Below are positions 20,239-45,694 of a DNA stretch of 64,000 nt, piece after piece. The stretch comes from an uncultured Crocinitomix sp. (GTDB lineage: Bacteria > Bacteroidota > Bacteroidia > Flavobacteriales_D > Crocinitomicaceae), in contig CAKZON010000086.1 of assembly GCA_937136425.1 (NCBI GenBank), positions 1 through 64,000 of the forward strand, read 5' to 3'. A program made the position numbers and the translations under genes. The stretch's first letter is position 1; each line of letters starts with the position of its first letter. The notes below the pieces were generated by a model that was not told the origin of the DNA, did no database searches, and was given only the letters and a program-made list of their open reading frames with translations.

Positions 20239-20281
20239 CGAAAATACAAGAAGGAATAGGGTTATAAAATGATCTGAATCA
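20239..20281 (-). promoter_or_regulatory. FNR-type box and -7 element for the 20216 regulator
   Basis: The box TGATCTGAATCA sits at 20270-20281. The minus-strand -7 element TATTTTCG (7/8 to TAnnTTTG) is at 20239-20246. Centres are 33 bp apart. Confidence 0.7.
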
Positions 20282-20304
20282 TTCACTTATAGGACGAATA
20301 GATG

Positions 20305-21015
20305 CTATTCGTAAATTCCAGCAGCTCTAGTAAGGCTTTTAAGGTCAAGTATTTTTATCGATTTTCCTTTTAAGAAAATTAACTCTTCCTTGTGTAATGC
20401 AGCCAATGTTCTAATAGTCGTTTCAGTAGTAGTTCCAGCAATGTCTGCTATTTCTGAACGCGAAAGCAAAACGTTTAAACTTTGGTTATCATCTGTAATA
20501 CCAAAAGTATCATAGATCAAGATCAATGCTTCAGCAATTCGCTCTTTAACGGTTTTCTGTGCAATGTTGATTAAATGTTGCTCAGCATTTTTTAAATCTT
20601 TTGACAAAACCTGCATTGTATTCCATGAAAGCTTAGGATTTTCTGCCATCAATGTAATGTATTTCTCACGAGAAAGATGACATATATGGGAATCTTCCAT
20701 GGCGCTAGCTGTTGCATTATAGGGTTCGTTACTTAATGAAGAGCGATAACCAAGAATGTCTCCTGTTTTGGCGAACCGAATGACTTGTTCTTTTCCATCC
20801 TCACCAAGCTTGGTAAGTTTGACTTTACCGTTATGAATACAGTAAAGCCCATTTGAATGATTTCCCTCATAGAATATGACTTGGCCTTTTTTGTAAAAGT
20901 TATTTCCTTTACCAGCGCTCAAAACCTCTTTTTCCTCTAGAGATAAGGAACAAAACACTTTACTGTCGTTTGTACATTCAGCACAATTTGGAATTTGATC
21001 TATTTGTCGTTTCAT
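20305..21015 (-). CDS. FNR-like oxygen/NO-sensing regulator
   Basis: This 236-aa Crp/Fnr-family protein carries an N-terminal cysteine set (Cys11-x2-Cys14-x7-Cys22) and a fourth in-domain Cys at 112 (HICHLS), the arrangement expected for a [4Fe-4S] cluster as in FNR. The sensory domain includes GLYCIHNGKVKLTKLG; the HTH is SRSEIADIAGTTTETTIRTL with the Glu and Arg of FNR-type recognition helices that read TTGAT half-sites. It is the best candidate for the factor binding the TGAT-N4-ATCA boxes of this window. A perfect -7 element at 21033-21040 drives it; an FNR box 55 bp further up may act on it too. Confidence 0.85.
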   Translation of the reverse strand: MKRQIDQIPNCAECTNDSKVFCSLSLEEKEVLSAGKGNNFYKKGQVIFYEGNHSNGLYCIHNGKVKLTKLGEDGKEQVIRFAKTGDILGYRSSLSNEPYNATASAMEDSHICHLSREKYITLMAENPKLSWNTMQVLSKDLKNAEQHLINIAQKTVKERIAEALILIYDTFGITDDNQSLNVLLSRSEIADIAGTTTETTIRTLAALHKEELIFLKGKSIKILDLKSLTRAAGIYE

Positions 21016-21032
21016 AATTGTATGATTATAAT

Positions 21033-21040
21033 CAAATATA
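21033..21040 (-). promoter_or_regulatory. -7 element of the FNR-like gene
   Basis: Minus-strand TATATTTG is a perfect TAnnTTTG, ending 18 nt before the ATG at 21015. It lies 55 bp (centre to centre) from the FNR box at 21086-21097, not the 33 bp seen at the other promoters. Confidence 0.55.
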
Positions 21041-21085
21041 AATAGAATAAATAGCGTAACATGTTTTGAAAATCATTATTAATAA

Positions 21086-21129
21086 TGATTTAAATCATAG
21101 TTACAAACACTTGTTTTGAACGATCTTTG
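21086..21129 (+). promoter_or_regulatory. FNR-type box and -7 element for the MORN-like gene
   Basis: TGATTTAAATCA (21086-21097) is a perfect box. GATCTTTG (21122-21129; 7/8 to TAnnTTTG) follows with centres 34 bp apart. The box overlaps a second perfect 20-bp palindrome, AATCATTATTAATAATGATT (21071-21090), giving a composite operator between divergent genes. Confidence 0.65.
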
Positions 21130-21182
21130 ACGAGTGCATGAATGAACTTCTATTATTAGAAGTGTAAAAATGCATTTACAAT

Positions 21183-21557
21183 ATGTATAGTTACAATAGT
21201 TATCATAAAATAGTAGTGGCACTATTAGTGGTGTTTTGGGCTGTTTTTCATTTCTCGCAAAGAAAAGGAGAGGGGTTATATTATGAAAACGGACAAGTAA
21301 AACAAACAGGTGGTACGGAGAATTCTTTGAATGAGGGTTTGTGGATATGGTTTTATGAGGACGGAACCGTGGAGATGCAGGGTAATTTTCATAACGGAAA
21401 CCGAGAGGGGGTATGGAAAAGGTTTAATGAAGAAGGACAACTGGTTTCTGAAAGCACATATAAAAAAAATAAACTCCACGGTGAATATAGAGAGTTTAAC
21501 ACAGAGGGGAAGGTTGTTTTTACCAGGTATTATAAAAATGATATACCGCAGAAATAA
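21183..21557 (+). CDS. MORN-repeat-like (YwqK-type) small envelope protein
   Basis: This 124-aa protein has an N-terminal hydrophobic helix (about 10-24) and then four MORN-variant repeats of the form G.W..(Y/F)...G.....G.Y: YYENGQVKQTGG, WFYEDGTVEMQGNF, WKRFNEEGQLVSES, YREFNTEGKVVFTRYY. Proteins of this kind are often labelled YwqK-family antitoxins, although here no toxin partner is adjacent. The FNR box upstream places it in the nitrate/NO regulon. Its stop lies inside a strong hairpin shared with the convergent gene. Function in respiration is unknown. Confidence 0.7.
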   Translation: MYSYNSYHKIVVALLVVFWAVFHFSQRKGEGLYYENGQVKQTGGTENSLNEGLWIWFYEDGTVEMQGNFHNGNREGVWKRFNEEGQLVSESTYKKNKLHGEYREFNTEGKVVFTRYYKNDIPQK

Positions 21558-21573
21558 GTTCTCTGCGGTATAT
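21541..21573. terminator. Bidirectional hairpin between convergent genes
   Basis: ATATACCGCAGA (21541-21552) pairs perfectly with TCTGCGGTATAT (21562-21573) around a 9-nt loop that holds the stop codon of the MORN-like gene. There is no long U-tract, so it may work as an mRNA 3'-end stabiliser for both convergent transcripts. Confidence 0.7.
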
Positions 21574-21598
21574 TAATTCATCTATTTTAGAGCTTTGA

Positions 21599-22057
21599 TT
21601 AAAGCGGAAGTTCAAATTTAGTTTCCCACTTTTCTTTCGTTACGCTGTTTTCTAAATTCACTTTTAAAAAACTAGTGTCCCCTTCTTTAATAATTAATCG
21701 GTCAATAATTTGACTGTCATTGGAGTTGTTGCTGTCATTGAGCTTATCTCCTAGACGTGGTAAGAAAGGGTATAAAATTGTAATTTTTTCATCTTCTGTT
21801 TTTACTAAACTATTGGCAGTTTCAAAAATAAGTTCTTCAAATTTTTCGCCAATAATTTGGTCGTTTAATTCATCCTTGGCTTTTGGGTTAATGCCGTTTG
21901 CCCAATCAAAAAATTTTGCTGTAGCCTCTGTTTTTAGTGCTGGGCGAATATAGGATGGGAAAGGTGAGCGAATATGATCTTGATCTGTAAACCAAAATTT
22001 AAAAGTTTGCTCCACCATTTCACTGCTTTCTACTGTATTTAATTCAAGTTCTTTCAT
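21599..22057 (-). CDS. Hypothetical protein cotranscribed with RIC
   Basis: This 152-aa soluble protein has no signal peptide and no Cys. It contains FKFWFTDQDHIRSPFPSYI near the start and a C-terminal beta-rich part (TKEKWETKFELPL). I do not recognise it. It begins 7 nt after the stop of the Fe-S repair gene, so it is expressed with it under the same FNR box, which links it to NO or Fe-S stress by context only. Confidence 0.6.
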   Translation of the reverse strand: MKELELNTVESSEMVEQTFKFWFTDQDHIRSPFPSYIRPALKTEATAKFFDWANGINPKAKDELNDQIIGEKFEELIFETANSLVKTEDEKITILYPFLPRLGDKLNDSNNSNDSQIIDRLIIKEGDTSFLKVNLENSVTKEKWETKFELPL

Positions 22058-22063
22058 TACAAT

Positions 22064-22798
22064 TTATTTAGTGTTAAATAACTCGCTCTCCAACTTAATT
22101 GCTTTAGGGAACAAAATATTGTTTTCAATGTGTATATGCGTAAAAAGGTCGTTCTGGAATTCTTCTAGTTTAGCATAAAGTGCTCTAAATGTGTTGCAGG
22201 CCTCTGCAGGTGGAGTGAAGTTGTTAGATAATGATTTAATGTCTTTAATAAGGTCTCCGGCAGTATCATGTTCCAGCTCCATCATATGAATTGGATTTTG
22301 AATTGATCCGAATGCAGGTGAATTCATATTTGTGCCACTTTTTTTCGCGTGTGCCATTTGTTTGATATATGGAAAAAGAATCATTTCTTCTTTATACATA
22401 TGATTGTTTAATTCTTCCGCAATTTTATGAAATGCAGTATTTATTGCAATCACCTCTGCGTAATGATGTCCATGTACTTTTGCTACCTTGTTTGAGTATT
22501 CAAGAATTAAAGCACTTGCTTCTGCTACATACGAATGATGCGTATTAATGACGTAATCAGTTAAGAAGTCTAGTTCCCACAAATCATATTTATGAGTAAC
22601 TTCTGCAGCGTCTAGTGCGGCAATTTCTTCTTTAAGCTGCGCATAATCTACTGATTTTTTTTTGCAAACTTCTTCAACTAAAATGTTGCCTCCGCAGCAA
22701 AAGTCAATTCCATTTTTCTTGAATATATCGGCTGTTCGGATATTGTTGGTTACAATTTCCGCAACAGTCATTTCGTCAAAATTCATCCCTACTTTCAT
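22064..22798 (-). CDS. RIC/ScdA-type iron-sulfur cluster repair di-iron protein
   Basis: This 244-aa protein has an N-terminal ScdA_N (DUF542) domain with the hallmark DIFKKNGIDFCCGGN (Cys34, Cys35) and a C-terminal hemerythrin-like four-helix domain with repeated His (HKYDLWELDFLTDYVINTHH given in part as INTHHSYV, HGHHYAEV, HMMELEHD, HIHIENNILFP). Such proteins restore Fe-S clusters damaged by nitric oxide or oxidants. The perfect FNR box upstream and its place beside the respiration genes support an NO-protection role. It is followed 7 nt later by the 152-aa hypothetical gene. Confidence 0.92.
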   Translation of the reverse strand: MKVGMNFDEMTVAEIVTNNIRTADIFKKNGIDFCCGGNILVEEVCKKKSVDYAQLKEEIAALDAAEVTHKYDLWELDFLTDYVINTHHSYVAEASALILEYSNKVAKVHGHHYAEVIAINTAFHKIAEELNNHMYKEEMILFPYIKQMAHAKKSGTNMNSPAFGSIQNPIHMMELEHDTAGDLIKDIKSLSNNFTPPAEACNTFRALYAKLEEFQNDLFTHIHIENNILFPKAIKLESELFNTK

Positions 22799-22813
22799 AC
22801 TATTATTTTAGTC

Positions 22814-22864
22814 TAAAGGTACGCCGAGTTTGAAACCTAATTAATGATTTAAATCATTAATTAG
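22814..22864 (-). promoter_or_regulatory. Perfect palindromic FNR-type box and -7 element of RIC
   Basis: The core TGATTTAAATCA (22845-22856) sits in a perfect 28-bp palindrome covering 22837-22864. The minus-strand -7 element TACCTTTA (7/8) is at 22814-22821, with centres exactly 33 bp apart. The palindrome lies between the thioredoxin-like gene stop and the RIC start. Confidence 0.8.
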
Positions 22865-22871
22865 ATTCAGA

Positions 22872-23468
22872 TTAGTCAGTTTTAATCCAGGTCTTAATGC
22901 TGTTTAAAAGATCTTCGTTAATGATTTCTCCTTTGTCTATAGTGTAAAGGGTGTGCAAATCTTTTTTGAATTGTTCTGGAGTGTAGTTTGGGTTTTCTAA
23001 TTTGTAAGCTGCAATCCAGTCAATAATTTTTGAGGGGCGCGGTCCCCAATGGCCTACTTCTTTTTTCGTAACAGTGCTGTGGCAAACCAAAATTGGAATT
23101 GCTCTTGATTGATTCGTTAAGTATCGATCCATAATTTGTTCATTTTCGTCTCTTAAAATGATTTGTAACGAAATTGATTCAGATTGTGTGGCAATTTTGT
23201 TAATGTAGGGCAATATTTGAGCGGCATCTCCGCACCATCCTTCTGCAATCACTGTCCATTTCCATTTGGGCTGATTGTCGTCAATTATTTGCTTTAATTC
23301 TGTATTTATTTTGGCAGTTTTATTTAGTCGCTTAAATCGTTTTGCGTTAATCTTGCTGGCTTCAATTTTTGCAGGAGAATGATCTGTTCCTGTAGCTTTG
23401 TTGTCTGCTAATAAATCATTTGTATGTTGAATAAATGAATCGTATGTGAAGGTATTTTTGCTTTGCAT
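22872..23468 (-). CDS. Thioredoxin-fold protein with WCGDA motif
   Basis: This 198-aa protein has a thioredoxin-like region near residues 70-150: WTVIAEGWCGDAAQILPYIN. The usual CxxC is reduced to a single Cys79 in WCGDA, a form widespread in Bacteroidota thioredoxin-family proteins. A cis-Pro-like ARAIPILV segment (RAIPILVC) follows. No signal peptide is present, so it is cytosolic. Its own FNR-type box and -7 element put it in the anaerobic/NO regulon. A redox or bacillithiol-like partner function is possible but not shown. Confidence 0.8.
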   Translation of the reverse strand: MQSKNTFTYDSFIQHTNDLLADNKATGTDHSPAKIEASKINAKRFKRLNKTAKINTELKQIIDDNQPKWKWTVIAEGWCGDAAQILPYINKIATQSESISLQIILRDENEQIMDRYLTNQSRAIPILVCHSTVTKKEVGHWGPRPSKIIDWIAAYKLENPNYTPEQFKKDLHTLYTIDKGEIINEDLLNSIKTWIKTD

Positions 23469-23484
23469 CTTTTTATTTTTTTTG

Positions 23485-23527
23485 CAAAGATCGGCCTAAT
23501 CTGTATTATAAAATATGAGCGAAATCA
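23485..23527 (-). promoter_or_regulatory. FNR-type box and -7 element of the thioredoxin-fold gene
   Basis: The plus-strand box TGAGCGAAATCA (23516-23527, 7/8 half-site match) and minus-strand GATCTTTG (23485-23492, 7/8 to TAnnTTTG) are 33 bp apart, centre to centre. Confidence 0.6.
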
Positions 23528-23546
23528 GTCGCTTATATAAGGGCTG

Positions 23547-23930
23547 TTAGTTTAGGTTTACTCCTAGTATTTCTAAAAGAGTATTGAACCCAATTCCTGC
23601 CAATAAAAAGATGATAAAAATGTTGAGTAAGATCATTTTTATCTCATCTCGCCTTAAATGAACCATTGCTGCACCTGCCATCACCATTGCTAAACCTGTA
23701 GCTGCAATTGGGGTAAGAATTGGAAAGATGTCTAGCTGGTGTGGAAGAATAATTCCGATTGCTCCGAGAACTTCTAATAGCCCGAAAAACTTTAGGCGCG
23801 AAGGAGCATAGTCATGAGCCCAGGTTACTCGTTTTTCTATTTTGTCTATAGGCATAAACATTTTGAGAGATCCAAAATATAGGAATAGGACTGAGAGTCC
23901 AATCTGTAAAATTAAAATAACTGTATCCAT
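23547..23930 (-). CDS. DoxX-like small membrane protein
   Basis: This 127-aa protein has four hydrophobic helices and the DoxX-family pattern LYFGSLKMFMP near residue 20, then FFGLLEVLGAIGIILP. DoxX-like proteins are poorly understood quinone- or thiol-linked inner-membrane proteins. It is divergent from narK, sharing a 134-nt control region with an FNR-type box. Its -7 element is a perfect TAACTTTG on the minus strand. Confidence 0.8.
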   Translation of the reverse strand: MDTVILILQIGLSVLFLYFGSLKMFMPIDKIEKRVTWAHDYAPSRLKFFGLLEVLGAIGIILPHQLDIFPILTPIAATGLAMVMAGAAMVHLRRDEIKMILLNIFIIFLLAGIGFNTLLEILGVNLN

Positions 23931-23946
23931 TGTAGAATATTTTTTA

Positions 23947-23988
23947 CAAAGTTACGAAAACAGTATCGCCAAAATATGATTTATAACA
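23947..23988 (-). promoter_or_regulatory. FNR-type box and -7 element of the DoxX-like gene
   Basis: The box reads TGATTTATAACA on the plus strand (23977-23988, one half-site mismatch). Minus-strand TAACTTTG (23947-23954) is a perfect -7 element. Centres are 32 bp apart. Confidence 0.55.
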
Positions 23989-23998
23989 TATATCAATG

Positions 23999-24041
23999 TA
24001 ATTCGGCTCATTTAGTAACTGATTATCCACCCGTAACTTTG
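23999..24041 (+). promoter_or_regulatory. narK promoter, weak FNR-type box plus -7 element
   Basis: TAACTTTG (24034-24041, followed by T) is a perfect TAnnTTTG element. A degenerate box TAATTCGGCTCA (23999-24010, 6/8) lies 33 bp away, centre to centre; the better box at 23977-23988 is 55 bp away. The element overlaps the GTG at 24041 and so excludes it as a start codon. Confidence 0.5.
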
Positions 24042-24064
24042 TGTCTATAATTGAAACTACTATT

Positions 24065-25594
24065 ATGGAATCAGAAAAATTCAGATTGTTTGACTTTTCA
24101 CAAGAAAAAGTAAGAGTCTTGCATTATACGTGGATTGCATTTTTTCTAACTTTTTTTGTATGGTTTAATATGGCTCCACTAAAAACAGCCATGGTTGAGT
24201 CTTTTGACTTTTTGAACGGAAAAAACTTTAAATCATTATTACTTTGTAACGTGGCATTAACAATTCCAGCAAGGATTGTTGTCGGCGCCTTAGTAGATAA
24301 ATATGGTCCGCGTGTTATCTTTTCTGGCTTAATGGTTATAACCATTATTCCAGGGCTTATGTTTGCTTTTGGAGATTCATTTACACAGTTAGTTATTTCC
24401 CGATTGTTACTTAGTTCTATTGGTGCTGGTTTCGTAATTGGTATTAAAATGACAGCTAACTGGTTTCCAGCAAAACATATTGGTCGAGCAGAAGGTTTTT
24501 ATGCCGGTTGGGGTAACTTCGGTTCTGCAGCAGCAGCTGGTTTAATTCCGTTTATAGGATTAACACTCATTCAAGGAGAAATGGGTTGGAGATGGGCCAT
24601 GGCGATTAGTAGTATTCTAACTGCTTTATATGGTGTGTTTTATTATTTCAAGGTAAGAGATTTTCCAACATCTAAAAAGGAAGTTAAAACTGATAAAAAG
24701 AAAAAGGCATCTAGTATAATGCCTGTATCAACTTATGGTGGATTAATTCAGTATTTATTTTGGACAATTCCATTATATGCTGCTTTAGGGTTACTTGCTA
24801 GAAACCTACAAAAACAAGTGATTCATGATGAAAACATGTTTTCACTAAACACTATGTATCTTATTTGGGTCATTTTGGCTGGATTCTTTCTATACAAAGC
24901 AATTGCAATTTTACGTTATAATTTACCAAGATTAAAGAATGGTATTCCTGAAGATGAGAAGTTTCACTTTAGTAGTGTTGGAGCATTAAACATGACCTAT
25001 TTTGCCAATTTTGGAGCAGAGCTTGCTGTTGTTTCTATGTTGCCATTATTTTTTGAGAATACGTTTAAAATTACACCGCAAATGGCTGGTTTAGTTGCAG
25101 GGTCTTTTGCAGTTATTAACTTAATTGCACGTCCGCTGGGTGGATACTTGTCTGATAAAATGAATAGCCGTAAAAAAACAATGCTAATTTATATGATTGG
25201 TATTGCATTTGGTTTTTTCTTAATGGGCTTAATTAGTAAATATTCTGGTCAAGTTAATGCAGATGGCGATCCGATTTTAGTACCAATGTTTACAGGAACA
25301 TGGTGGTTAGTGGTTTCCGTTATTATAACCATGTTTGCTTCAATGTTTGTGCAAGGAGCCGAGGGAGCTACTTTCGCCATGATTCCTTCAATCAAAAAAG
25401 AGATGACCGGAAGAATTGCTGGAATGGCAGGCGCTTATGGTAATGTAGGTGCTGTAACATACCTCTTCATTTTAACAATGGTTGATTCTAAAATGTTCTT
25501 TTTTATCCTGGCAGCTGGAGCAGCAGTTAGTTTTCTGTGGTGCTTGTTTGCCTTAAAAGAACCTGAAGGAGCCTTTGCTGACGAAGCACATTAG
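24065..25594 (+). CDS. narK: NarK-family nitrate/nitrite transporter (first copy)
   Basis: I set the start at ATG 24065 (509 aa) because an in-frame GTG at 24041 lies inside the -7 promoter element. The protein is a polytopic MFS transporter of the nitrate/nitrite porter family: LVDKYGPRVIF between helices 2 and 3, then GFVIGIKMTANWFPAKHIGRAEGFYAGWGNFG (part: GRAEGFYAGWGNFGSAAAAG), the family motif, and a later ANFGAELAVVSMLPLFF. The NPF-like second signature is AYGNVGAVTYL. This type is probably a nitrate/proton symporter (NarK1-like), while the next gene is NarK2-like. It feeds nitrate to NarG in the cytoplasm. Confidence 0.9.
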   Translation: MESEKFRLFDFSQEKVRVLHYTWIAFFLTFFVWFNMAPLKTAMVESFDFLNGKNFKSLLLCNVALTIPARIVVGALVDKYGPRVIFSGLMVITIIPGLMFAFGDSFTQLVISRLLLSSIGAGFVIGIKMTANWFPAKHIGRAEGFYAGWGNFGSAAAAGLIPFIGLTLIQGEMGWRWAMAISSILTALYGVFYYFKVRDFPTSKKEVKTDKKKKASSIMPVSTYGGLIQYLFWTIPLYAALGLLARNLQKQVIHDENMFSLNTMYLIWVILAGFFLYKAIAILRYNLPRLKNGIPEDEKFHFSSVGALNMTYFANFGAELAVVSMLPLFFENTFKITPQMAGLVAGSFAVINLIARPLGGYLSDKMNSRKKTMLIYMIGIAFGFFLMGLISKYSGQVNADGDPILVPMFTGTWWLVVSVIITMFASMFVQGAEGATFAMIPSIKKEMTGRIAGMAGAYGNVGAVTYLFILTMVDSKMFFFILAAGAAVSFLWCLFALKEPEGAFADEAH

Positions 25595-25611
25595 TATATA
25601 GATTATTTAAA

Positions 25612-25626
25612 GGATACTCAGTATCC
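25612..25626. repeat. Short hairpin between the two narK genes
   Basis: GGATAC-TCA-GTATCC lies in the 64-nt gap between the two transporter genes. No U-tract follows, so it more likely adjusts mRNA stability or relative expression than terminates. Confidence 0.5.
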
Positions 25627-25658
25627 AAATTACCTTACTTTTAACCAATTAAAGGATT

Positions 25659-27287: not shown

Positions 27288-27336
27288 TTAAAGGGAATTT
27301 GAGCAGCATTAAACAACGCTCAAACGTCCGTTCATA

Positions 27337-27379
27337 TGAGGCAGATCATAGTTTCCAGATCAAAATAATTAAAACTTTG
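27337..27379 (+). promoter_or_regulatory. FNR-type box and -7 element of the porin gene
   Basis: TGAGGCAGATCA (27337-27348; one half-site mismatch) and AAACTTTG (27372-27379; 7/8 to TAnnTTTG) have centres 33 bp apart. The mRNA would begin near 27386, at the left edge of a large hairpin. Confidence 0.6.
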
Positions 27380-27381
27380 TA

Positions 27382-27422
27382 GTGTTGTTAATGGCGTAAA
27401 AAATAAGCGCCATTAGCAACAC
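27382..27422 (+). repeat. 15-bp stem-loop at predicted 5' end of porin mRNA
   Basis: GTGTTGTTAATGGCG (27382-27396) pairs with CGCCATTAGCAACAC (27408-27422) around an 11-nt loop, with one T-G wobble. It follows the predicted -7 element directly and ends 27 nt before the porin ATG. It has no U-tract. I read it as a 5' leader stem that could protect or regulate the porin mRNA; it could also end the upstream narK transcript. Confidence 0.7.
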
Positions 27423-27449
27423 TTATAGCTAATATTTAAACGATATAAT

Positions 27450-28769
27450 ATGAAATCTTTTATTAGAAAAGGGGTGGCATTTGCCATTTTTACCATGACA
27501 ATGGGTACCGCCTATTCACAGTTGAAAATTACGGCAGAGGTTAGGCCAAGAGCAGAGTATCGACACGGATTTAAAACATTACCAACTACAGATATGGATA
27601 ATGCATTTTTTGTGGATCAGCGCACACGTCTAAATGTGAAATATCAAAAAGACCGTATTAAGTTTTATGTTTCATTACAAGATGTTCGTACTTGGGGAAG
27701 TCAAAAACAATTAGTAGGAAATGAAGATTTTGGAGTATCCATTCACGAAGCGTGGGGGTCAGCTCAAATTTTCGATAATTGGGCACTTAAATTTGGACGC
27801 CAAGAGTTAGTTTATGATGATTCGCGAATATTTGGTAATGTTGGCTGGGCACAACAAGCCCGAAGCCATGACGCATTGCTGTTTAAATATGGAAAAGAGA
27901 AATTAAAATTAGATATTGGTGGAGCATTTAACCAAAATAGTCCAAAATTAAATACAACAAGTTATACTGTTGGTGGTAGCTACAAGTCTTTGCAGTATTT
28001 GTGGGCAAACTATAAATTTAACAGTAGTTTTAGTGCAAGTGTACTTGCTATGAGTGTGGGACAACAAGTAAATTATGTTAATGCAAACGGCGTTGATCGT
28101 TACCAAGATAATTATACTTTAACTGCGGGAACACGATTGGTTTATAAGAAAAATAAATTTGGACTAGGATTTAATGGGTATTACCAGTTGGGAAGCACAA
28201 ATACGTGGCCAGCAAGAGATGTTTCTGCCTATAATCTATGTTTGGATTTATCATACAAAGTTGCTGATCCTTTAAAGTTAACCGTTGGTTTTGAAATGCT
28301 TTCAGGAAATAGTCAAACAGATGTAAGCACATCTTACGTGGAAACTAACCACGCCTTTACACCATATTTTGGCACTAATCACAAATTCAATGGATATATG
28401 GATTATTTCTATGTTGGAAATCATATTGGAAATGTGGGATTAAATGATATTTATTTAAGACTGGATTACAAACACGATAAATTTACAGCAGGTGTAACTG
28501 GTCATGCATTTATGGCTAATACAGATGTATTGGATGTGCCAGAGTTTGTGTCTACAGGGAATTTAAGCGCAATGAGTCCTTATATGGGAGCAGAAATTGA
28601 TTTATTCGGTGGTTTTGATTTGGCTCCTGGTGCTAAATGTAAAATCGGTTATTCTCATTTAATTGGTACATCAACAATGGAGGCTGTTAAAGGTGGTGAC
28701 ATGACAGAGGTAGCCAATTGGGGATACGTAATGTTCATAATCAAACCTACTTTATTTGAGCAAAAGTAG
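27450..28769 (+). CDS. Outer-membrane porin, alginate-export-like family
   Basis: This 439-aa protein has a signal peptide ending in AYSQ and then a beta-barrel of many amphipathic strands (LKITAEVRPRAEYRHGF, WALKFGRQELVYDDSRIFG, FNSSFSASVLAMSVG, YNLCLDLSYKV). The GRQEL..D..R..G stretch is typical of the Alginate_exp-type 16-18-strand porins. Its position after narK genes and its FNR-type promoter suggest an outer-membrane channel for nitrate or nitrite rather than alginate export. It is monocistronic with its own leader hairpin and a Rho-independent terminator. Confidence 0.8.
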   Translation: MKSFIRKGVAFAIFTMTMGTAYSQLKITAEVRPRAEYRHGFKTLPTTDMDNAFFVDQRTRLNVKYQKDRIKFYVSLQDVRTWGSQKQLVGNEDFGVSIHEAWGSAQIFDNWALKFGRQELVYDDSRIFGNVGWAQQARSHDALLFKYGKEKLKLDIGGAFNQNSPKLNTTSYTVGGSYKSLQYLWANYKFNSSFSASVLAMSVGQQVNYVNANGVDRYQDNYTLTAGTRLVYKKNKFGLGFNGYYQLGSTNTWPARDVSAYNLCLDLSYKVADPLKLTVGFEMLSGNSQTDVSTSYVETNHAFTPYFGTNHKFNGYMDYFYVGNHIGNVGLNDIYLRLDYKHDKFTAGVTGHAFMANTDVLDVPEFVSTGNLSAMSPYMGAEIDLFGGFDLAPGAKCKIGYSHLIGTSTMEAVKGGDMTEVANWGYVMFIIKPTLFEQK

Positions 28770-28861: not shown

Positions 28862-28904
28862 TGATTTGTATCATATGTATTGGCGACATATCTCCCGATA
28901 TTTA
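28862..28904 (+). promoter_or_regulatory. FNR-type box and -7 element of the hemerythrin-moaA-crp operon
   Basis: TGATTTGTATCA (28862-28873) has both half-sites intact. GATATTTA (28897-28904; 6/8 to TAnnTTTG) lies 33 bp away. A TTTG-containing alternative (TACACTTTG, 28916-28924) has the wrong internal spacing. Confidence 0.55.
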
Positions 28905-30679: not shown

Positions 30680-31348
30680 ATGAAATTTCTGATTGATAAG
30701 TACTGCTCAAATGAGTGGAAAGAATTTATAAATTTTCATAAAGAAACCAGACAATATGAGAAAGGGTCATATGTGTTTGAAGCCGGGGAAGAAACGCAAG
30801 GTCTGTTTATTATTGAATCGGGCAAGGTAAAAATCAGCTATAAACAATACGATAATAGTAGTCGGTTAATTCGTCTTGCAAATGACGGTGATATTTTAGG
30901 TCACAGAGGTTTTGGTGGAAACTGGAAATATCCAATTTCAGCATTTACTTTAGAAAAAACTAAGGTTAGTTTTATTTCTGTTGAGGTGTTTGATGTCGTG
31001 GCGAAAGCAAATGCTTTATTTAGCTACCATTTAATGATGTTTTTTGCAGAGGAATTGCGAAAATCTGAAGCGAAAATTAAGCACTATCCGGTTAAAAATT
31101 TGGTAGCAAGAGCTTTGCTTGACAATGCAAGAGCATTTGGTTTTGAGAGCGATAAGTCTGCAAAGTTAGCTCACACGCTTACTCGAAAAGATTTGGCAAG
31201 TAAAGCCGGGACAACTTATGAAACTGTTGTTAGGTCATTAGCAGAATTTAATAAAACGGGCGTTATAAAAATTGATGGGAAAGAGATTCATATTTTAGAT
31301 ATGGAAAGGCTAAGAAAACTTGCACGGCCTGAAGAATCGCAAAAATAA
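30680..31348 (+). CDS. Crp/Fnr-family regulator of DNR type
   Basis: This 222-aa protein lacks the N-terminal Cys cluster. It has a cNMP-like domain (GLFIIESGKVKISYK, DGDILGHRGF) and an HTH TRKDLASKAGTTYETVVRSL, where Glu and Arg sit as in FNR-type recognition helices. Cys-free regulators with FNR-like DNA binding, such as DNR and NnrR, sense NO through haem. It is the third gene of the hemerythrin-moaA operon and its stop is 8 nt from the norB stop on the other strand. It could read the same boxes as the FNR-like protein at 20305-21015. Confidence 0.8.
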   Translation: MKFLIDKYCSNEWKEFINFHKETRQYEKGSYVFEAGEETQGLFIIESGKVKISYKQYDNSSRLIRLANDGDILGHRGFGGNWKYPISAFTLEKTKVSFISVEVFDVVAKANALFSYHLMMFFAEELRKSEAKIKHYPVKNLVARALLDNARAFGFESDKSAKLAHTLTRKDLASKAGTTYETVVRSLAEFNKTGVIKIDGKEIHILDMERLRKLARPEESQK

Positions 31349-33135: not shown

Positions 33136-33178
33136 CAAAATTACATTCATGCAGCCGCCGAGAAAATGATGTGAATCA
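33136..33178 (-). promoter_or_regulatory. FNR-type box and -7 element of norCB
   Basis: TGATGTGAATCA (33167-33178) and the perfect minus-strand TAATTTTG (33136-33143) are 33 bp apart, centre to centre. This is the clearest example of the shared promoter layout. Confidence 0.82.
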
Positions 33179-33222: not shown

Positions 33223-33265
33223 TGATGCACATCATTTATTGAATATTTAAAACCTAATAATTTAG
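33223..33265 (+). promoter_or_regulatory. FNR-type box and -7 element of the 59-aa gene
   Basis: TGATGCACATCA (33223-33234) has both half-sites intact; TAATTTAG (33258-33265; 7/8) follows with centres 33 bp apart. The leader to the ATG at 33277 would be only a few nucleotides. Confidence 0.65.
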
Positions 33266-34562: not shown

Positions 34563-34605
34563 CAAAAGTCGGAATTAATTACGGACTATAAAATGACTTA
34601 TCTCA
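34563..34605 (-). promoter_or_regulatory. Weak FNR-type box and -7 element of ctaA
   Basis: The degenerate box TGACTTATCTCA (34594-34605; one mismatch per half-site) and minus-strand GACTTTTG (34563-34570; 7/8) have centres 33 bp apart. The spacing is the main support for the box. Confidence 0.5.
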
Positions 34606-37465: not shown

Positions 37466-37480
37466 GAGTATTCGTAAACT

Positions 37481-37519
37481 AAAAAACTCTGGTAATTGAT
37501 TATTGCCAGAGTTTTTTTT
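37481..37519 (+). terminator. Rho-independent terminator of nrdJ
   Basis: AAAAAACTCTGGTAAT (37481-37496) pairs with ATTGCCAGAGTTTTTT (37502-37517) around TGATT and continues in a T-tract to 37519. One T-G wobble. Confidence 0.92.
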
Positions 37520-37557
37520 GTGCCTTAAAATTGCTGCAGATATAGTCCCGATTATGC

Positions 37558-37591
37558 AAAAAAAACCGCCGTGGATTATTCCAAGGCGGTT
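37558..37591 (-). terminator. Rho-independent terminator of the nar operon
   Basis: Read on the minus strand, AACCGCC (37591-37585) pairs with GGCGGTT (37570-37564), with further partial pairing inside, and is followed by a run of T down to 37558. It lies 26 nt after the narI stop and back to back with the nrdJ terminator. Confidence 0.88.
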
Positions 37592-37616
37592 CTTTAGTTG
37601 GGGTTATAAGTAAGCG

Positions 37617-39038: not shown

Positions 39039-39039
39039 T

Positions 39040-39738
39040 TTAAGTAGTTTTTACGGGTTCGTTGATTTCTGCTGGGGCACAAGATCCTTCGCAATTTGGA
39101 ATAAAAGAGCTAAGCGGATCGGCCTTAATTTCCATGTTCTCGAATGAATTCACTTTAAAATCAGTTCGAAGGATAGAAAGTGCAGCTTGCAATGCATATT
39201 GGTATGCATTTTTGTTTTTCATATTTTCCTGAATCAGCACCTTTTGTTTTTTCTTACGCACTTTTGTTTTGAGTGCAATTCTGGAAGAATCGAATTCCTT
39301 TACCATTATTTCAAGTGCTGGAATGTACATTCGAACAACTAATTCTTCTAAGAATTTTGGATCCTCCAAAAGTGGTAGCAGTGTTAATGCGTTCGGTAAA
39401 TTGTCAGGAAGTTCTACACCGCAATCGTTATTTACTTTGCGTTGTTCATTTTTCATTTGAACTAAAAATTCCCCTCTTTTATAATCCTCTGCATAAAGCA
39501 CATAACCTAAATCCAAATAGCAAATAGCTTGTATGTGAAATGTTTTCCCAAACAGTTCCTCAATCTCATATACATCTTCTTTTTGGTGGATGATTTCTTG
39601 AAAAGCTTTAAGCTGTTCATAAGCATCCGGATATTGCCCTTTAATAAATGCAACACATGCATCCATTTGCTCAACATATCCAGTTTGCGGATAGCGGAAT
39701 AAATTGGCTAATAAATTATATTGAATTTTATCCTTCAT
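39040..39738 (-). CDS. narJ: NarJ, nitrate reductase assembly chaperone
   Basis: I set the start at ATG 39738 (232 aa, MKDKIQYNLLANLFRYP), 13 nt after the narH stop. The open frame reaches 39876, but that would overlap narH by 125 nt and add a non-typical N-terminus. The sequence has the helical NarJ/DMSO-chaperone fold (YEIEELFGKTFHIQA, LPNALTLLPLLEDP). NarJ guides molybdenum cofactor insertion into NarG and membrane attachment. The acidic, Cys-containing tail (FIPNCEGSCAPAEIN) is an unusual extension. Confidence 0.88.
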   Translation of the reverse strand: MKDKIQYNLLANLFRYPQTGYVEQMDACVAFIKGQYPDAYEQLKAFQEIIHQKEDVYEIEELFGKTFHIQAICYLDLGYVLYAEDYKRGEFLVQMKNEQRKVNNDCGVELPDNLPNALTLLPLLEDPKFLEELVVRMYIPALEIMVKEFDSSRIALKTKVRKKKQKVLIQENMKNKNAYQYALQAALSILRTDFKVNSFENMEIKADPLSSFIPNCEGSCAPAEINEPVKTT

Positions 39739-39751
39739 AATTACATGTGTT

Positions 39752-41245
39752 TTACATTCCTCTTGCTGGACGTTCTTTAAATCCGAAACCTGTTTCACCT
39801 TTAGCATCTGCTGTTGCTTCAAGCATTTCAATTGATTCTTCTCTATGTGCTGGAGGAATGACAAAGCGTTCCTCAAAAGTTGCCAATGAAGTCAGCCTGA
39901 AAATTGCGTTTGCCGTGTCTTTATCAACTTTTGCATTCGCCATTAAATCTTTCACTTCATCTGGAGATAAATCACCCACAGTTTCATTTCTTCTGTGATA
40001 TTTAACACTCAATAATTTTTCGTAAACAGTTGTAATCGCTTCTGTGTCTCCGTTTGAAAATAAGGATGCTAAATATTTAAGTGGTACACGATTTTGATCC
40101 ACCTTAGGAAATAAATCTTTCGATTTTGTTTCGTAATTACCATTTTCATCCATTTGTGCCATGGCTGGTAGCATTGGCGGAACATAGAATAAGTTCGGTA
40201 ATGTTCTATATTCAGGATGTAAAGGCAATGCAATATTCCATTCTTTTACAAATTTGTATACCGGTGATTTTTGTGCGGCTTCAATTGTTGAATCATGAAT
40301 TCCACATCTGCGCGCTGCAGCAATAACTTGTGGATCATTCGGATCAACATAAATGTTTAAATGGTTATGCACTAAATCTTTGTCAGAAGAGGAAGCAACT
40401 TGCTCAATTCTATCTGCATCATAAAGCATTACGCCTAAATATCTAATTCGTCCAACACAAGAGTGCATACATGCTGGCGCTTGTCCAGACTCTAATCGAG
40501 GATAACAAAGGATACATTTTTCAGATTTCCCTGTATGCCAATTGTAATAAGTCTTTTTATAAGGACAAGCAGTTACACACATTCTCCATGCACGACATCT
40601 TTCCTGGTTAATTAAAACCACACCATCTTCACCTCTTTTATAAAGTGCACCTGAAGGGCATGATGCCACGCAGGCTGGATTTAAACAGTGATTACAAATT
40701 CTTGGTAAGTATTGCAAAGTCATTTGTTCTAACTGGAACATTGATTCTTGCTCGGCTGCAGAAAGGTTTGAAAAATTTACATCTTTTCTTGCATAGTCTG
40801 GTGATCCACCTAAGTCGTCATCCCAGTTTGGCCCTGATTTAATGTCAATAGGTTCGCCGGTAATTAGTGAAATTGCACGTCCTATTGGTTGGTCGTTTCC
40901 TTCTGGTGCAGTAAATAAATCGCTGTATTTATACGCCCAAGGATGATAATAGTCCTCAAGGGTAGGCATGTTAGGATTGTGAAAAATATTCTTTAATCCT
41001 TTTAATTTACCAGCTCCTTTTAAAGCAATTGAATCTCCTTTTTTCTCCCATCCTCCTTTATATATTTCTTGATCTTCCCATTTGGTTGGATAGCCTGTTC
41101 CGGGTTTGGTTTCAACATTGTTCCACCACATATATTCGGCTCCTCTTCTGTCGGTCCAAACATTTTTGCAGGCTACTGAACAAGTGTGACAACCGATACA
41201 TTTATCGAGATGAAAAACCATTGAAACTTGTGCTCTAATATCCAT
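39752..41245 (-). CDS. narH: NarH, nitrate reductase beta subunit
   Basis: This 497-aa ferredoxin-like subunit has four Cys groups: CIGCHTCSVACKNVW near the start, CNHCLNPACVASCPSGAL, CRAWRMCVTACPYKK and KCILCYPRLESGQAPAC. The Trp in CRAWRMC replaces a cluster cysteine and marks the [3Fe-4S] cluster of Nar-type enzymes, as in E. coli NarH. Its role is electron transfer from NarI to NarG. It is 29 nt after narG and 13 nt before narJ, in one operon. Confidence 0.95.
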   Translation of the reverse strand: MDIRAQVSMVFHLDKCIGCHTCSVACKNVWTDRRGAEYMWWNNVETKPGTGYPTKWEDQEIYKGGWEKKGDSIALKGAGKLKGLKNIFHNPNMPTLEDYYHPWAYKYSDLFTAPEGNDQPIGRAISLITGEPIDIKSGPNWDDDLGGSPDYARKDVNFSNLSAAEQESMFQLEQMTLQYLPRICNHCLNPACVASCPSGALYKRGEDGVVLINQERCRAWRMCVTACPYKKTYYNWHTGKSEKCILCYPRLESGQAPACMHSCVGRIRYLGVMLYDADRIEQVASSSDKDLVHNHLNIYVDPNDPQVIAAARRCGIHDSTIEAAQKSPVYKFVKEWNIALPLHPEYRTLPNLFYVPPMLPAMAQMDENGNYETKSKDLFPKVDQNRVPLKYLASLFSNGDTEAITTVYEKLLSVKYHRRNETVGDLSPDEVKDLMANAKVDKDTANAIFRLTSLATFEERFVIPPAHREESIEMLEATADAKGETGFGFKERPARGM

Positions 41246-41274
41246 AATTGATGTATTTAGTTCTTGTCGCTTAA

Positions 41275-44200
41275 TTAATATTCTACTTTGTGCATTTTTC
41301 TCACTAACACGTGTGTGTCACGGTTTACACCAACCGGTCCCCAATAATTGAAATGGTAGGTAAACTGTCCATACCCTCCACACATTAGGTTCGGTTTAAG
41401 GTGAACTCTGGTGAAGGAGTTGTTCATCCCTCCACGTCTTGGTTCACCATTTTTACCTCTTCTTATTTGTGATTTTGGGATATTATAAGTTCGTTCAACT
41501 GCGTGATACACGATACAAACTCCTTTCGGAATTCGGGCACTAACACAGGCTCTGGCAACGTACACACCATGGTCATTATAAACCTCTACGTGGTCGTTAT
41601 CATTGATTCCGAGTTCGGCCGCATCTTGTTCACTTATCCAGCACGGTTCGTTACCTCTTGAAAGGGTTAACATTCTTAATGTATCTCCATATGTTGAGTG
41701 AATGTGCCATTTTCCGTGAGGCGTTAAACAGTTGAGCATTTTAGCTTTTCCATCATTCACGGTTTGTCTTAAATCACCATATGCTTCTGGTGTTGGTGAA
41801 GGTTTGTAGGTTGCAATATGTTCCCCAAATGCAATATAGGCGTCATGGTCTAAATAGAAGTGTTGTCTTCCAGTTAAAGTTCTCCAAGGCACAAACATAT
41901 CTACGTTGTAAGTGTAGGCTGCATAGGTTCTTCCTTCATGCATTAACCCTGACCATAATGGTGAAGAATTATATCGTTTAGGCTGTGCCTGTAAATCTCT
42001 ATATTCAATTAAAATGTCTTTGTATGGTTTTCCTAATTCAGCAATTTCTGGAACTCCAATTTTTTTAGACATGTTTTGGTAGGCTCTGTCTGAAAGTTTA
42101 CCATTGGTTAAGGTTGAGAGCTTCAAAATGGCATTAATTGCTTCCACATCATCATGGAGTGATGGATATTCTGTGCCATCTTTCCATTTCGTGACATGTT
42201 GTCTATGATCTAACATTTCGTTATAAACATCATCACACATATAATGATTCCCGTGTGCGCCTAATCCGTTCTCGGCAACTCCTTTTCCTAATGAAATAAA
42301 CTTGTCGTAAATTTTGGTGTAGTCACGATCCTTGAAAACAATTTTATGCATTGTTTTACCAGGAATTGGTTCACATTCGCCTTTGCTCCAATCTTGTAAT
42401 CTTGTTTGACTCATTTCATCTTTCGAATCATGTGATAATGGAACATTGATTACATCTTTCATCACTTCAGGAAGGTAGTGCGGTGCCATTTCTTGCACTT
42501 TTTGCGCTAAATCTCTGAAAATATGCCAATCCGTTTTTGATTCCCAAACTGGTGGGATTGCTGCCGATAATGGGTGGATGAAAGAGTGCATATCAGTTGA
42601 GTTGATATCTGCTTTTTCATACCATGACGCAGTTGGTAATACAATATCAGAGTACAGAGCAGAAGTATCCATTCTGAAGTTAATATCGATTACTAAGTCC
42701 ATTTTTCCTTTTGGTGCTTTTTCTAAAAACTCAATGTCATTGGTGACATCTTCAGCAACTTCATCTGCAATTTTATTAGTATGCGTGCCCAAATAATGGT
42801 CTAAGAAATACTCATGACCTTTTGCTGAGGTTCCAATCGCATTACCTTTCCAGATAAACCAAACACGTGGGAAGTTTACTTCTCTGTCTGGTTCTGTAAT
42901 GGCGTGTTTTAATTCTCCCGATTTAATTTGAGAAACCATATAGTCTCGCATAGCATCATCAGTTGTATGACCTGCAGCTTGCGCCTCTTTCACAATGTCA
43001 AAATTGCTTTTGCTGTATTGTGGGTAGTATGGCATCCAACCATTTTTAACGGCCTTAACCGCCCAGTCAGCCGAGTGCATATTTGCTAGCTCGTTGTCTG
43101 GTGAAGAGTTGTATTTTTTTTGGTTGCCGTCATAACGCCATTGGCAAGAATTAATATAGTGCCAAATTGGTCCTTGTTGCAATCTTGGAGCAGTACCCCA
43201 ATCTTTAGAACTCATAATTGTAGACCATGAATCCATTGGAGCCAATTTCTCTTGTCCAACATAGTGGTTCATTCCGCCTCCATTTTTTCCGTTACAACCT
43301 GTAAGCATTTGCGCCATAATTGCTGAACGATACATGAGATTTTCATGGAACCAGTGATTAATTCCTGCACCTACAATTACCATACATGCACCTTCGGTGC
43401 GTTCAGCAGTTTCGGCCCATTCTCTAGCTAATTGAATTACTTCTTTTCTACCAATTCCAGTGAAAATCTCTTGCCAAGCAGGGGTATAAGCTGCATCTTT
43501 ATCGTTAAAATCAGTAGGGTAGTCTCCATCTAGTCCACGCCCAACACCATATTGTGCCATAGTGATATCATAGATAGTTGCCACAGCAATTTTGTCGCCA
43601 TTTACATCTGTAATGTAACGCACTGGTACACCACGCATGGCTTTTTTATCCAAGCCATATTCTGTAAATTCTACCTGTAAAACACCATCATTATTTTCTA
43701 AAAGTGAAAGTTCTGGATCATATTCAGCACCAGTTTCACCATCATTAAAGTTCAGGTTCCACTTTCCTTTTTCATCTTGCCATCTAAAGCCAGTTGTTCC
43801 CATTGGAACAATTAATCCGCCTGTTTTTGTGTCGTAGTTTAAGAATTTCCAATCGCCATTTTCAGCATCTTTATGTTTGGAAATTTCATTGGCACGAATC
43901 ATTCTTCCAGGAAGATTAACGCCATTCTTGTCTTCAATCTTAACCAAGAAAGGACAATCAGTAAAGCGTTTCACATAGTCCATGAAATATGGCACCTTAC
44001 GGTTGACGTGGTATTCTTGTAAAATAACGTGCGTAACCGACATCCAAAATGCACCATCCGATCCTGCATGAACAGGAATCCATTGGTCGGCATGTTTCGC
44101 AACCATACTAAAGTCAGGAGACATTACAACGGTTTTGGTACCATTGTGTCTTGCTTCAGAAAAGAAGTGAATATCTGGCGTTCTTGTCATACCTAGGTTG

Positions 44201-44916
44201 GCACCCATTGAAACAATGAACTTAGATTTAAACCAATCTGCAGATTCACAAACATCTGTTTGTTCTCCCCAAATTTCTGGGAAGGCATTGGGTAAATCAC
44301 AATACCAATCGTAAAAACTGAGGTTAACCCCACCCATTAATTGCAGGTAGCGTGCTCCAGAAGCATAACTAAGCATACTTTTGGCAGGAATTGGAGCAAA
44401 TCCAATAATTCGATCCGATCCATATTTTTGAACCGTATAAATATTTGAAGCGGCAATAAGTTCTACCATTTCGTCCCAATGCACTCGGCGGAAACCACCT
44501 TTACCACGTGCTCTTTGGTATCTTTTTCTTTTTTCAGGATCTGCCTGTAAATTAGCCCAAGCTTTTACGGCATCTCCACCAACTTTTTCCTTTTCAGCTC
44601 TATACAAGTCGATTAATGCACCTCTAATAATTGGATATTTAACACGAATAGGGCTGTATAAATACCATGAATAAGAAATACCACGTTGGCAACCTCTCGG
44701 TTCGTATGGAGGCACCTCTTTATTGAATTGAGGATAATCCAATTGCTGCATTTCCCATACAACAATTCCGTCTTTTACGTGAATTGCCCATGAGCAACCA
44801 CCTGTACAGTTAACTCCGTGTGTACTTCTAACAACTTTGTCATACTGCCATCTATTTCTATAAAATTCTTCCCATTTTCGGGTTTCTGGTGATATGATAT
44901 CTTCGATCCAACTCAT
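41275..44916 (-). CDS. narG: NarG, respiratory nitrate reductase catalytic subunit
   Basis: This 1213-aa molybdoenzyme has the FS0 cluster ligands His33, Cys37, Cys41 ([13 protein letters not shown]) and Cys76 (EPRGCQRG), and the molybdenum ligand Asp221 in WGEQTDV. No twin-arginine signal is present at the N-terminus ([17 protein letters not shown]), so the active site should face the cytoplasm, as in E. coli NarG. This matches the presence of two NarK transporters. The operon order is cytochrome c, narG, narH, narJ, cyt c-narI. Confidence 0.96.
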
Positions 44917-44947
44917 AATGTTGTTTATTTATACTGTTTAATGTCAA

Positions 44948-45607
44948 TCAAAATTTTGCGTCCCAAGCCTTGTTCTGTCTAGCGAAAATATCGGCTTTAA
45001 CCATTTTCGTTTTTCGTCTGCTCCAAAGCAATTGGACAAAAGCTAAAAGAATTACAAGGCCTAATCCGCCTCCAACGAAAAAGTAAATTCCTCCACTTTT
45101 TTCTTTTTGAGAATCTTTAGTTTCATCTGCATATTTCAAAAAGGCCGTTAAGTCTACACGCTCTTGTTCCGTTAACGGATTATTGTTGTATGTTGCAGCC
45201 ATTGCTGGAAATGGCGGTGCGCCTAACCAACTCACAAGGCCTTCACCAAGTCGACTGTAGACGTCAGTTAAATCTTTGGCGAATAGTCCACCAGGTATAA
45301 CATCTTCGTGCGTTACATTATGACATGCAATACACGAAGGGCCTCCATTTTTGAACAATGCACCTCCTTGAAAGAAAGATTTACCTCTTTCAATGTCTCC
45401 TATCAGTACAACCTCTGGTGTACTTTCCAAATCTTCTTCTTCTGTTACGGCTTCCTCTTCTTCAATATTTTCTACGATCTGCGTAGTGTCTTCCTCTAAG
45501 GCTAAATCAATGGTGTCCTCTTGGGCATATGAAATAAGCGGTGAAAACATGAGTATTTGACCCGCTATGAGTAAACCAACCCGTTTTACTAATCTTGTTC
45601 GATTCAT
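44948..45607 (-). CDS. NarC-like membrane-anchored cytochrome c
   Basis: This 219-aa protein has a signal peptide (ending SYAQ), a 40-residue acidic linker rich in Glu and Val, a monohaem cytochrome c domain with CIACH (Cys92, Cys95, His96), and a C-terminal membrane helix (GGGLGLVILLAFVQLLW). It is the first gene of the nar operon. A cytochrome of this kind before narG recalls NarC of Thermus and haloarchaeal nar clusters, but homology is not established. With the cytochrome fused to NarI, two haem c domains face the periplasm. Confidence 0.82.
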   Translation of the reverse strand: MNRTRLVKRVGLLIAGQILMFSPLISYAQEDTIDLALEEDTTQIVENIEEEEAVTEEEDLESTPEVVLIGDIERGKSFFQGGALFKNGGPSCIACHNVTHEDVIPGGLFAKDLTDVYSRLGEGLVSWLGAPPFPAMAATYNNNPLTEQERVDLTAFLKYADETKDSQKEKSGGIYFFVGGGLGLVILLAFVQLLWSRRKTKMVKADIFARQNKAWDAKF

Positions 45608-45651
45608 TGTGTTTAGATTTTAATTCTAAAAGGTTTATCAATTCTATACCA

Positions 45652-45694
45652 CAAAAGTGGGACTTAATACTGCTTGATAAAATGATTTGAATCA
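45652..45694 (-). promoter_or_regulatory. FNR-type box and -7 element of the nar operon
   Basis: TGATTTGAATCA (45683-45694) has both half-sites intact; minus-strand CACTTTTG (45652-45659; 7/8) lies 33 bp away. The leader to ATG 45607 would be about 38 nt. Confidence 0.72.

Follow-up and report, generated by a model that had tools for sequence, protein, structure and literature searches.

Promoters of a gene cluster in the first 64,000 bases of contig 86 from an uncultured Crocinitomix genome of the family Crocinitomicaceae, Flavobacteriales (bases 1-64000, 36% GC, genome total 6.09 Mb; this whole stretch is called the window below) carry a palindromic box, TGAT-N4-ATCA, at a fixed distance of 33 base pairs (bp), centre to centre, from the -7 element TAnnTTTG. 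Relatives keep the spacing, genomes with a close FNR-like gene have more sites and the box falls at about -41.5, which makes an FNR-type class II regulon the best-supported reading. The arrangement itself is real and conserved on Bacteroidota promoters; the binding protein and its signal are what we infer from it. The best explanation overall would be an FNR-like class II activator, most likely FnrA encoded in the window, acting at -41.5 on Bacteroidota sigma-A promoters, and we put its probability at roughly 0.7.

The gene set, located at 19.6-45.7 kb, comprises three Crp/Fnr-type regulator genes (crpA, fnrA and crpC), a MORN gene, the genes of RIC/ScdA, a thioredoxin-fold protein and DoxX, two MFS (narK-like) genes, a porin-like gene, a hemerythrin gene, moaA, norB, norC, a gene for a protein of 59 amino acids (aa), ctaA, a B12-type ribonucleotide reductase gene and a cytochrome c-narGHJI operon, while nosZ was not found in the window's own genome. 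Many nitrate, nitric oxide (NO) and nitrous oxide (N2O) reducers belong to the Bacteroidota, and a shared site at a fixed promoter distance suggests how these bacteria switch on nitrate and NO respiration genes when oxygen runs out. With the site and the distance together the regulon becomes readable from sequence alone and weak boxes are easier to call; in addition, a direct test is offered of the contact between an activator and a sigma factor with a promoter element unlike that of E. coli. A published FNR regulon for nitrate/NO respiration genes in Bacteroidota was not found in the open-licence literature, outside of which subscription journals largely lie.

Spacing of the box and the -7 element in the window and its genome

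Distances are given below as the gap, i.e., the number of nucleotides (nt) from the end of the box to the start of the -7 element; a gap of 23 corresponds to 33 bp between the box centre and the -7 centre, and gaps of 22, 24 and 45 to 32, 34 and 55 bp. The box was scored on its 8 core positions and the -7 element on 6, so that a promoter may reach a total of 14. Taken by itself, the box shows no clear enrichment in the window, where 66 matches with at most one mismatch were counted vs. 54 ± 7 in shuffled sequence (66 was reached by 5 of 100 shuffles). Because this count is near the shuffled level, box enrichment was set aside as evidence of its own, and it is the spacing that constitutes the signal. 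At gap 23, 10 of 21 window promoters score at least 12/14, fnrA and narK1 being among them with 6/8 boxes, and at each of the other 31 gaps (8 to 39) this score is reached by 0-3 of the 21. When the same upstream regions were subjected to 300 dinucleotide shuffles, gap 23 gave a mean of 0.13 and a maximum of 2, compared with the 10 real promoters. The fixed spacing in the window is thus confirmed.

A scan of the own genome with TGATN4ATCA-N{9,39}-ANNTTTG gave 58 matches; the 33-bp spacing accounts for 10 of them, whereas other spacings average 1.6 each. Among the 8 matches at 33 bp that lie outside the window, 5 are inside genes and 3 are intergenic at a gene start; since half of the correctly spaced matches (5/10) fall inside genes, genome-wide counts of perfect boxes were judged weak. 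The fuller fixed-spacing pattern (at most 2 mismatches) matched 27 times at gap 23, including 7 matches within the cluster, and the same pattern with a spacing 3 shorter (gap 20) matched 9 times, never within the cluster and in 6 of the 9 cases inside genes.

All boxes listed in the initial annotation were reproduced, whether perfect or with one or two mismatches (Table 1). The 33-bp spacing that had been ascribed to the promoters of crpA, RIC, the thioredoxin-fold gene, the porin, hemerythrin, norC, the 59-aa protein and the nar operon holds in 8 of 8, and the 34 bp (24 nt) of the MORN gene and the 32 bp (22 nt) of the DoxX gene were found as described. Gap 23 also applies to the weak ctaA promoter (box 6/8, -7 element 5/6) and to narK1 (6/8 and 6/6), though at narK1 a stronger 7/8 box sits at gap 45. 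Some other statements stand only in part. Variation of the -7 elements, which had been placed mostly at position 1, does affect that position in 4 of 8 elements but extends to positions 7 and 8; moreover, gap 23 is the dominant rather than the single spacing, gap 45 being a second preferred position. Two features had gone unnoticed, namely a perfect box over the -7/start region of fnrA and the preferred 55-bp spacing at narK1 and fnrA. Since the narK1 -7 element covers 24034-24041, the gene probably starts at ATG 24065 and not at GTG 24041.

Conservation, motif and position relative to the predicted start

The spacing was followed in several sets of related loci. In the set centred on FNR orthologs (23 loci from 21 genomes including the own one, with at most one mismatch each in box and -7 element) 73 gene-upstream sites lie at gap 23, 8 at gap 24, 4 at gap 22 and 0-6 at every other gap from 8 to 39; where no gene follows the site, the counts are 21 at gap 23 and 4-17 at the other gaps. 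Recurrent targets at gaps 22-24 in these loci are moeA (13 loci), crpA (12), DoxX (7), a 151-aa protein and a ModE-like protein (6 each), RIC (5), thioredoxin (3) and NarK (3), and these counts contain the close genome pairs G043/G084 and window/G008. A second set of 19 stretches, taken mostly from the same genomes, has 25 sites at gap 23 and 0-4 elsewhere. Of 80 loci found by name, 11 were assigned to the family, and the remaining 69, which were not placed there by title although some may belong, hold 63 sites at gap 23, 20 at 24, 12 at 22 and 1-8 at others. The cultured relative Brumimicrobium salinarum is represented among the loci. In 8 Ignavibacteria loci, in which few promoter families are represented, the modal gap is 24 (8 sites vs. 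1).

Whole genomes, with no selection of loci, gave a similar picture. The pattern TGATN4ATCAT-N23-ANNTTTG was compared with nine control gaps in 200 family genomes, and 280 sites were counted at the exact gap against 366 over the nine controls, i.e., 41 per gap, a figure inflated by a repeat in genome G055. This repeat, a control-gap stretch TGATTTAAATCAT...ATATTTG, occurs there in many copies, several of them near contig ends, and is probably a mobile element. The 18 genomes encoding an FnrA of more than 50% identity have a mean of 5.61 sites, compared with 0.25 at a control gap; testing them against the remaining genomes gives a Mann-Whitney p of 9e-13. nosZ scored over the cut-off in 11 genomes. 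Of the 4 among them with close FnrA, 3 have a gap-23 site ahead of the nosZ operon, and of the 7 without it 0 have one, in a search that covered 0.8 to 1.4 kb upstream of nosZ; the fourth genome with close FnrA, G045, has only a gap-46 near-match there.

The consensus of 59 sites, from which the near-duplicate loci L086 and L092 were left out, reads a-TGAT-ttaa-ATCA-T-att, followed by the remainder of the 23 nt and then by TAnnTTTG. The base before TGAT is A in 69%, G in 19%, C in 7% and T in 5%, and the base after ATCA is T in 95% and A in 0% (Fisher p 0.0005 for the flank asymmetry); such asymmetry would be expected if the downstream flank doubles as a poor -33 element. The designation as an FNR/DNR consensus accordingly fits the TGAT-N4-ATCA core, but not the flanks, which are ATGAT-N4-ATCAT, unlike TTGAT-N4-ATCAA or TTGATnnnnATCAA. 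The box that overlaps the fnrA -7 element deviates in its flank and reads TTGAT..ATCA. Between the nor boxes and the moeA/crpA boxes, the inner four bases show no difference by eye.

Position relative to the start can be derived from Flavobacterium psychrophilum, in the sigma-A promoters of which the same TAnnTTTG was placed at -12 to -5 by mapped starts (PMC9723704). Because TAnnTTTG occupies -12 to -5 in mapped flavobacterial promoters, a gap of 23 puts the box centre at -41.5, in agreement with the class II position proposed initially. At the predicted +1, 41.5 from the box centre, A is present in 43 of 59 sites, the highest value of the 22 positions after the -7 element (p 1.5e-6 vs. an assumed 42%); the position two further on is A in 68%. 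The same source describes cbb3 oxidase as up at low oxygen, and the words Crp and Fnr are absent from its main text (PMC9723704).

The palindromic core is shared with the class II promoters of E. coli FNR (narG, nirB and narK). The gap from box to -10 element is 23 in narG and 22 in nirB and narK vs. 23 here, with hexamers chosen by position; dmsA, in which the -10 is not clear at a single gap, was left out. Measured to the first T of the -10/-7 element, the distance is the same as in E. coli narG, which suggests that the geometry was kept while the element changed, TATAAT there being TAnnTTTG here. The boxes differ as well, with TTGAT..ATCAA in E. coli and outer A/T bases (ATGAT..ATCAT) here.

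The probable bound protein and competing explanations

FnrA contains a cNMP-binding and an HTH_Crp_2 domain and matches FNR-type structures at 5.7e-23. Its Cys residues are at 11, 14, 22, 59 and 112, of which Cys 112 aligns to a Cys of FNR structures, and Cys 11, 14, 22 and 112 would provide three N-terminal ligands and a central one, as in the Cys arrangement of E. coli FNR. In 14 aligned Bacteroidota FNR-like proteins Cys 11, 14, 59 and 112 are invariant; three members of a more distant branch (L063-L065) lack Cys 22 and keep Cys59, and the cluster ligands may differ from those of E. coli FNR. DNR, an NO-sensing haem regulator that is not known to have the cluster Cys, is unlike FnrA in this regard. 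Glu and Arg are kept in the recognition helix of FnrA, with Thr and Ile in place of Val208 and Ser212 of E. coli FNR (recognition residues V208-E209-S212-R213), a departure from the helix of the latter. At the place of CRP Arg180, equated by eye, FnrA has Thr; this fits a published rule in which R180 is paired with G3 and E181 with A6 of the site (PMC1274295).

The DNR/NnrR regulons of denitrifying proteobacteria have similar targets (nor, nar; PMC1274295). The DNR box is similar to TTGATnnnnATCAA, unlike the box described here. In the parts of PMC1274295 covered, Bacteroides is named only with HcpR, whose box GTAACnnnnGTTAC is a different one and is not matched by the 59-site base table. In PMC8510549, Crp/Fnr proteins of Flavobacteriales and Ignavibacteria were assigned to MalR with predicted carbon sensing, and no evidence of Crp/Fnr control of denitrification was reported in these groups. 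The lineages and the superfamily are the same, yet the sites presented here point the opposite way; the metagenome-assembled genomes of that study lie outside this comparison (PMC8510549).

According to the proposed mechanism, FnrA would be a low-oxygen and possibly NO-modulated activator whose dimer occupies ATGAT-N4-ATCAT and induces the genes of nitrate reduction, NO reduction, repair of NO damage and molybdenum cofactor. The dimer would be centred at -41.5 beside the sigma-A -7 element TAnnTTTG in a class II arrangement, and since the T-rich downstream flank of the box falls at the -33 place, the bound dimer may substitute for a poor -33 element. At some promoters, those of fnrA and narK1, the strong box is located 22 bp further upstream (-63.5), and a degenerate half-box is often present at -41.5. 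In addition, FnrA seems to repress its own gene via the box over the -7/start region and to switch on the second Crp-like gene, crpA.

Several observations weigh against this explanation. Its best match among solved structures is 2gau, a Crp/Fnr-family protein and not FNR, with FNR-type structures ranking after it; it scores 94.9 of 228 bits, far under the cut-off of the NCBI Fnr model; it has no Ser212 equivalent, and one of 18 close FnrA proteins (L047 in G186, outside the 14-sequence alignment) lacks the central Cys 112. The 20 matches to the fuller pattern outside the cluster are mostly intragenic (9) or near genes without an obvious anaerobic role; 11 are intergenic, and for 10 of the 11 a gene begins no more than 250 nt away; the neighbours include, by eye, a fatty-acid desaturase and a universal-stress-type protein. 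Furthermore, 127 genomes with only more distant FnrA matches still average 1.17 sites vs. 0.21 in controls, and 55 genomes without an FnrA match at 1e-30, including G004, which has 3 sites and a truncated fragment of a close FnrA, average 0.55 vs. 0.18. Finally, crpC is present in 20 of 200 genomes, 17 of which belong to the 18 that have close FnrA, and encodes the same E..R pair, so that presence cannot separate the two proteins: it differs only in G045, G170, G174 and G004, most of them fragmented or incomplete. Two of these carry crpC and no close FnrA was found in them, and still G170 has a gap-23 site at the nar operon, and in G174 gap-23 sites precede a desaturase-like gene and a gene for an 81-aa protein, while its porin has a site at gap 45. 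In G045, with FnrA only, there are 3 exact sites, one at a gene start (L118, G045:C14; tryptophanase-like by eye), and in its fnrA-moeA stretch (L089) exact gap-23 sites are absent, the site at fnrA having a gap of 45.

CrpC, located beside moaA and norB, could be proposed as the main binder, NO-responsive and DNR-like, with FnrA acting only on its own neighbourhood. The co-occurrence, the E..R helix, the box of norC-norB and the nar site of G170 speak for it; nevertheless, we regard it as unlikely, as genomes with only a more distant FNR, nearly all of them without crpC, show the spacing too, and the 20-kb crpC-nor stretch of G174, which has crpC and nor genes, contains no called gene with a gap 22-24 site (a single genome, 88% complete, with the norC start uncalled). 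CrpC has a single Cys. Since G174 and G170 carry sites without close FnrA, other paralogs probably use the same site. That the box is common to several of them (FnrA, CrpC, the more distant FNR and a receiver-FNR fusion), each under different signals, is a possibility against which the odds stand somewhat. All these paralogs share the recognition helix E-[TS]-..-R, sites are present in genomes without close FnrA, and L063 and L065, two of the more distant FNR genes that were inspected, each have a divergent gap-23 site. The own genome contains, by eye, a receiver-cNMP-HTH fusion (L072, G000:C100:39000-47000), in which a response regulator and an FNR-like protein are combined; a histidine kinase lies next to it, and nearby a gap-23 site precedes a copper P-type ATPase-like gene (by eye). 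The number of sites, on the other hand, climbs sharply only with close FnrA (5.6 vs. about 1). Repression from -41.5 instead of activation seems very improbable: position alone gives no sign of the effect and the box at 21023 overlaps the fnrA -7/start region, but repressors tolerate many positions relative to the promoter, and a constant distance from the -7 element, together with a second peak at two helix turns further upstream, is what a protein touching the polymerase needs; the targets, too, are anaerobic respiration genes. Chance in AT-rich intergenic DNA, for which the nearly shuffled box count in the window and the intragenic half of the 33-bp matches might be quoted, is already contradicted by spacing peaks in four tests with matched controls and in whole genomes, and can be given practically no weight.

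Second box position, putative self-control of fnrA and features of the window

A scan of gaps 0-99 that required an exact -7 element revealed the second position. The scan kept near-duplicate genomes, its sets share genomes (e.g., L148, L150), and L092 was omitted, as were L146 and L147 from the named set. The family set has 31 sites at gap 23, 12 at 45, 2 each at 44 and 46, 5 at 22, 4 at 24, 4 at 86 and 0-2 at the rest; in the 78 named loci the counts are 26 at gap 23, 11 at 45, 9 at 24, 6 at 22, 5 at 67, 3 at 46 and 0-2 at the rest. The second preferred position thus lies 22 bp, or two helix turns, upstream of the first, i.e., at -63.5. Among 27 distinct sites with gaps of 44-46, the -41.5 place has TGA in 10 and TCA in 9 and a mean match of 4.2/8 vs. 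2.5/8 at neighbouring offsets; since half-box matches are kept there, many of these sites are tandem pairs in which the proximal box is weak. Boxes in tandem at a distance of 22 bp were also seen in the Ignavibacteria loci L197, L205, L206 and L187, where the -7 element, at gap 24, is one base more distant than that of Flavobacteriales.

Of 16 fnrA promoters, 11 have an upstream box that begins 56-58 nt before the -7 element, and 5 (the window, L011, L040, L041 and L052) have an extra box overlapping the -7/start region, which suggests self-repression. A DNA hairpin at the fnrA box was not significant (z 0.43). As a broader and more tentative proposal, for which the balance is on the doubtful side, a phylum-wide FNR-like regulon might exist with its own code (ATGAT-N4-ATCAT, Thr for CRP Arg180), docking on the unusual Bacteroidota sigma-A at places two helix turns apart (-41.5, -63.5 and perhaps -85.5), with a one-base shift in Ignavibacteria, and controlling nitrate, NO and N2O respiration; in the more distant branch Cys59 may replace the third N-terminal Cys.

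Table 1. Boxes, -7 elements and regulator genes in the window (gap in nt from box to -7 element).
Feature	Position	Strand	Remarks
crpA, Crp-like protein without E..R recognition pair	19590..20216	-	recurrent target gene downstream of fnrA
crpA -7 element TATTTTCG	20239..20246	-	
crpA promoter box	20270..20281	-	perfect, gap 23
fnrA, FNR-like regulator, 236 aa	20305..21015	-	cNMP-binding + HTH_Crp_2; recognition helix GTTTETTIRTL
Box over fnrA -7 element and predicted start	21023..21034	-	perfect; putative self-repression site
fnrA -7 element TATATTTG	21033..21040	-	gap 45 from box 21086
Candidate shared box	21086..21097	both	perfect; MORN gene on + (gap 24), fnrA on - (gap 45)
MORN gene -7 element GATCTTTG	21122..21129	+	
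RIC -7 element TACCTTTA	22814..22821	-	
RIC/ScdA (22064-22798) promoter box	22845..22856	-	perfect, gap 23
Thioredoxin-fold gene -7 element GATCTTTG	23485..23492	-	
Thioredoxin-fold gene (22872-23468) box	23516..23527	-	one mismatch, gap 23
DoxX gene -7 element TAACTTTG	23947..23954	-	
Candidate shared box	23977..23988	both	one mismatch; DoxX gene on - (gap 22), narK1 on + (gap 45)
Weak narK1 box TAATTCGGCTCA	23999..24010	+	6/8, gap 23
narK1 -7 element TAACTTTG	24034..24041	+	start codon ATG at 24065
Porin (27450-28769) box	27337..27348	+	one mismatch, gap 23
Porin -7 element AAACTTTG	27372..27379	+	
Hemerythrin gene (28967) box	28862..28873	+	perfect, gap 23
Hemerythrin gene -7 element GATATTTA	28897..28904	+	4/6 match
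crpC, second Crp/Fnr-type regulator	30680..31348	+	helix GTTYETVVRSL; candidate alternative or additional binder; co-occurs with fnrA
norC -7 element TAATTTTG	33136..33143	-	
norC-norB box	33167..33178	-	perfect, gap 23
59-aa gene (33277) box	33223..33234	+	perfect, gap 23
59-aa gene -7 element TAATTTAG	33258..33265	+	
ctaA -7 element GACTTTTG	34563..34570	-	
ctaA weak box	34594..34605	-	two mismatches (6/8), gap 23
nar operon -7 element CACTTTTG	45652..45659	-	
Cytochrome c-narGHJI operon box	45683..45694	-	perfect, gap 23

A desaturase-like gene (likeness by eye) has a gap-23 site in the own genome G000, in G186 and in G174, the last being without close FnrA (L069 1109 in G000:C62, L095 1961 and L119). 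The single boxes at 21086 and 23977 appear to serve two divergent promoters each. At L091 19024, one palindromic box has TAnnTTTG-like elements at gap 23 on both sides, between two divergent genes.

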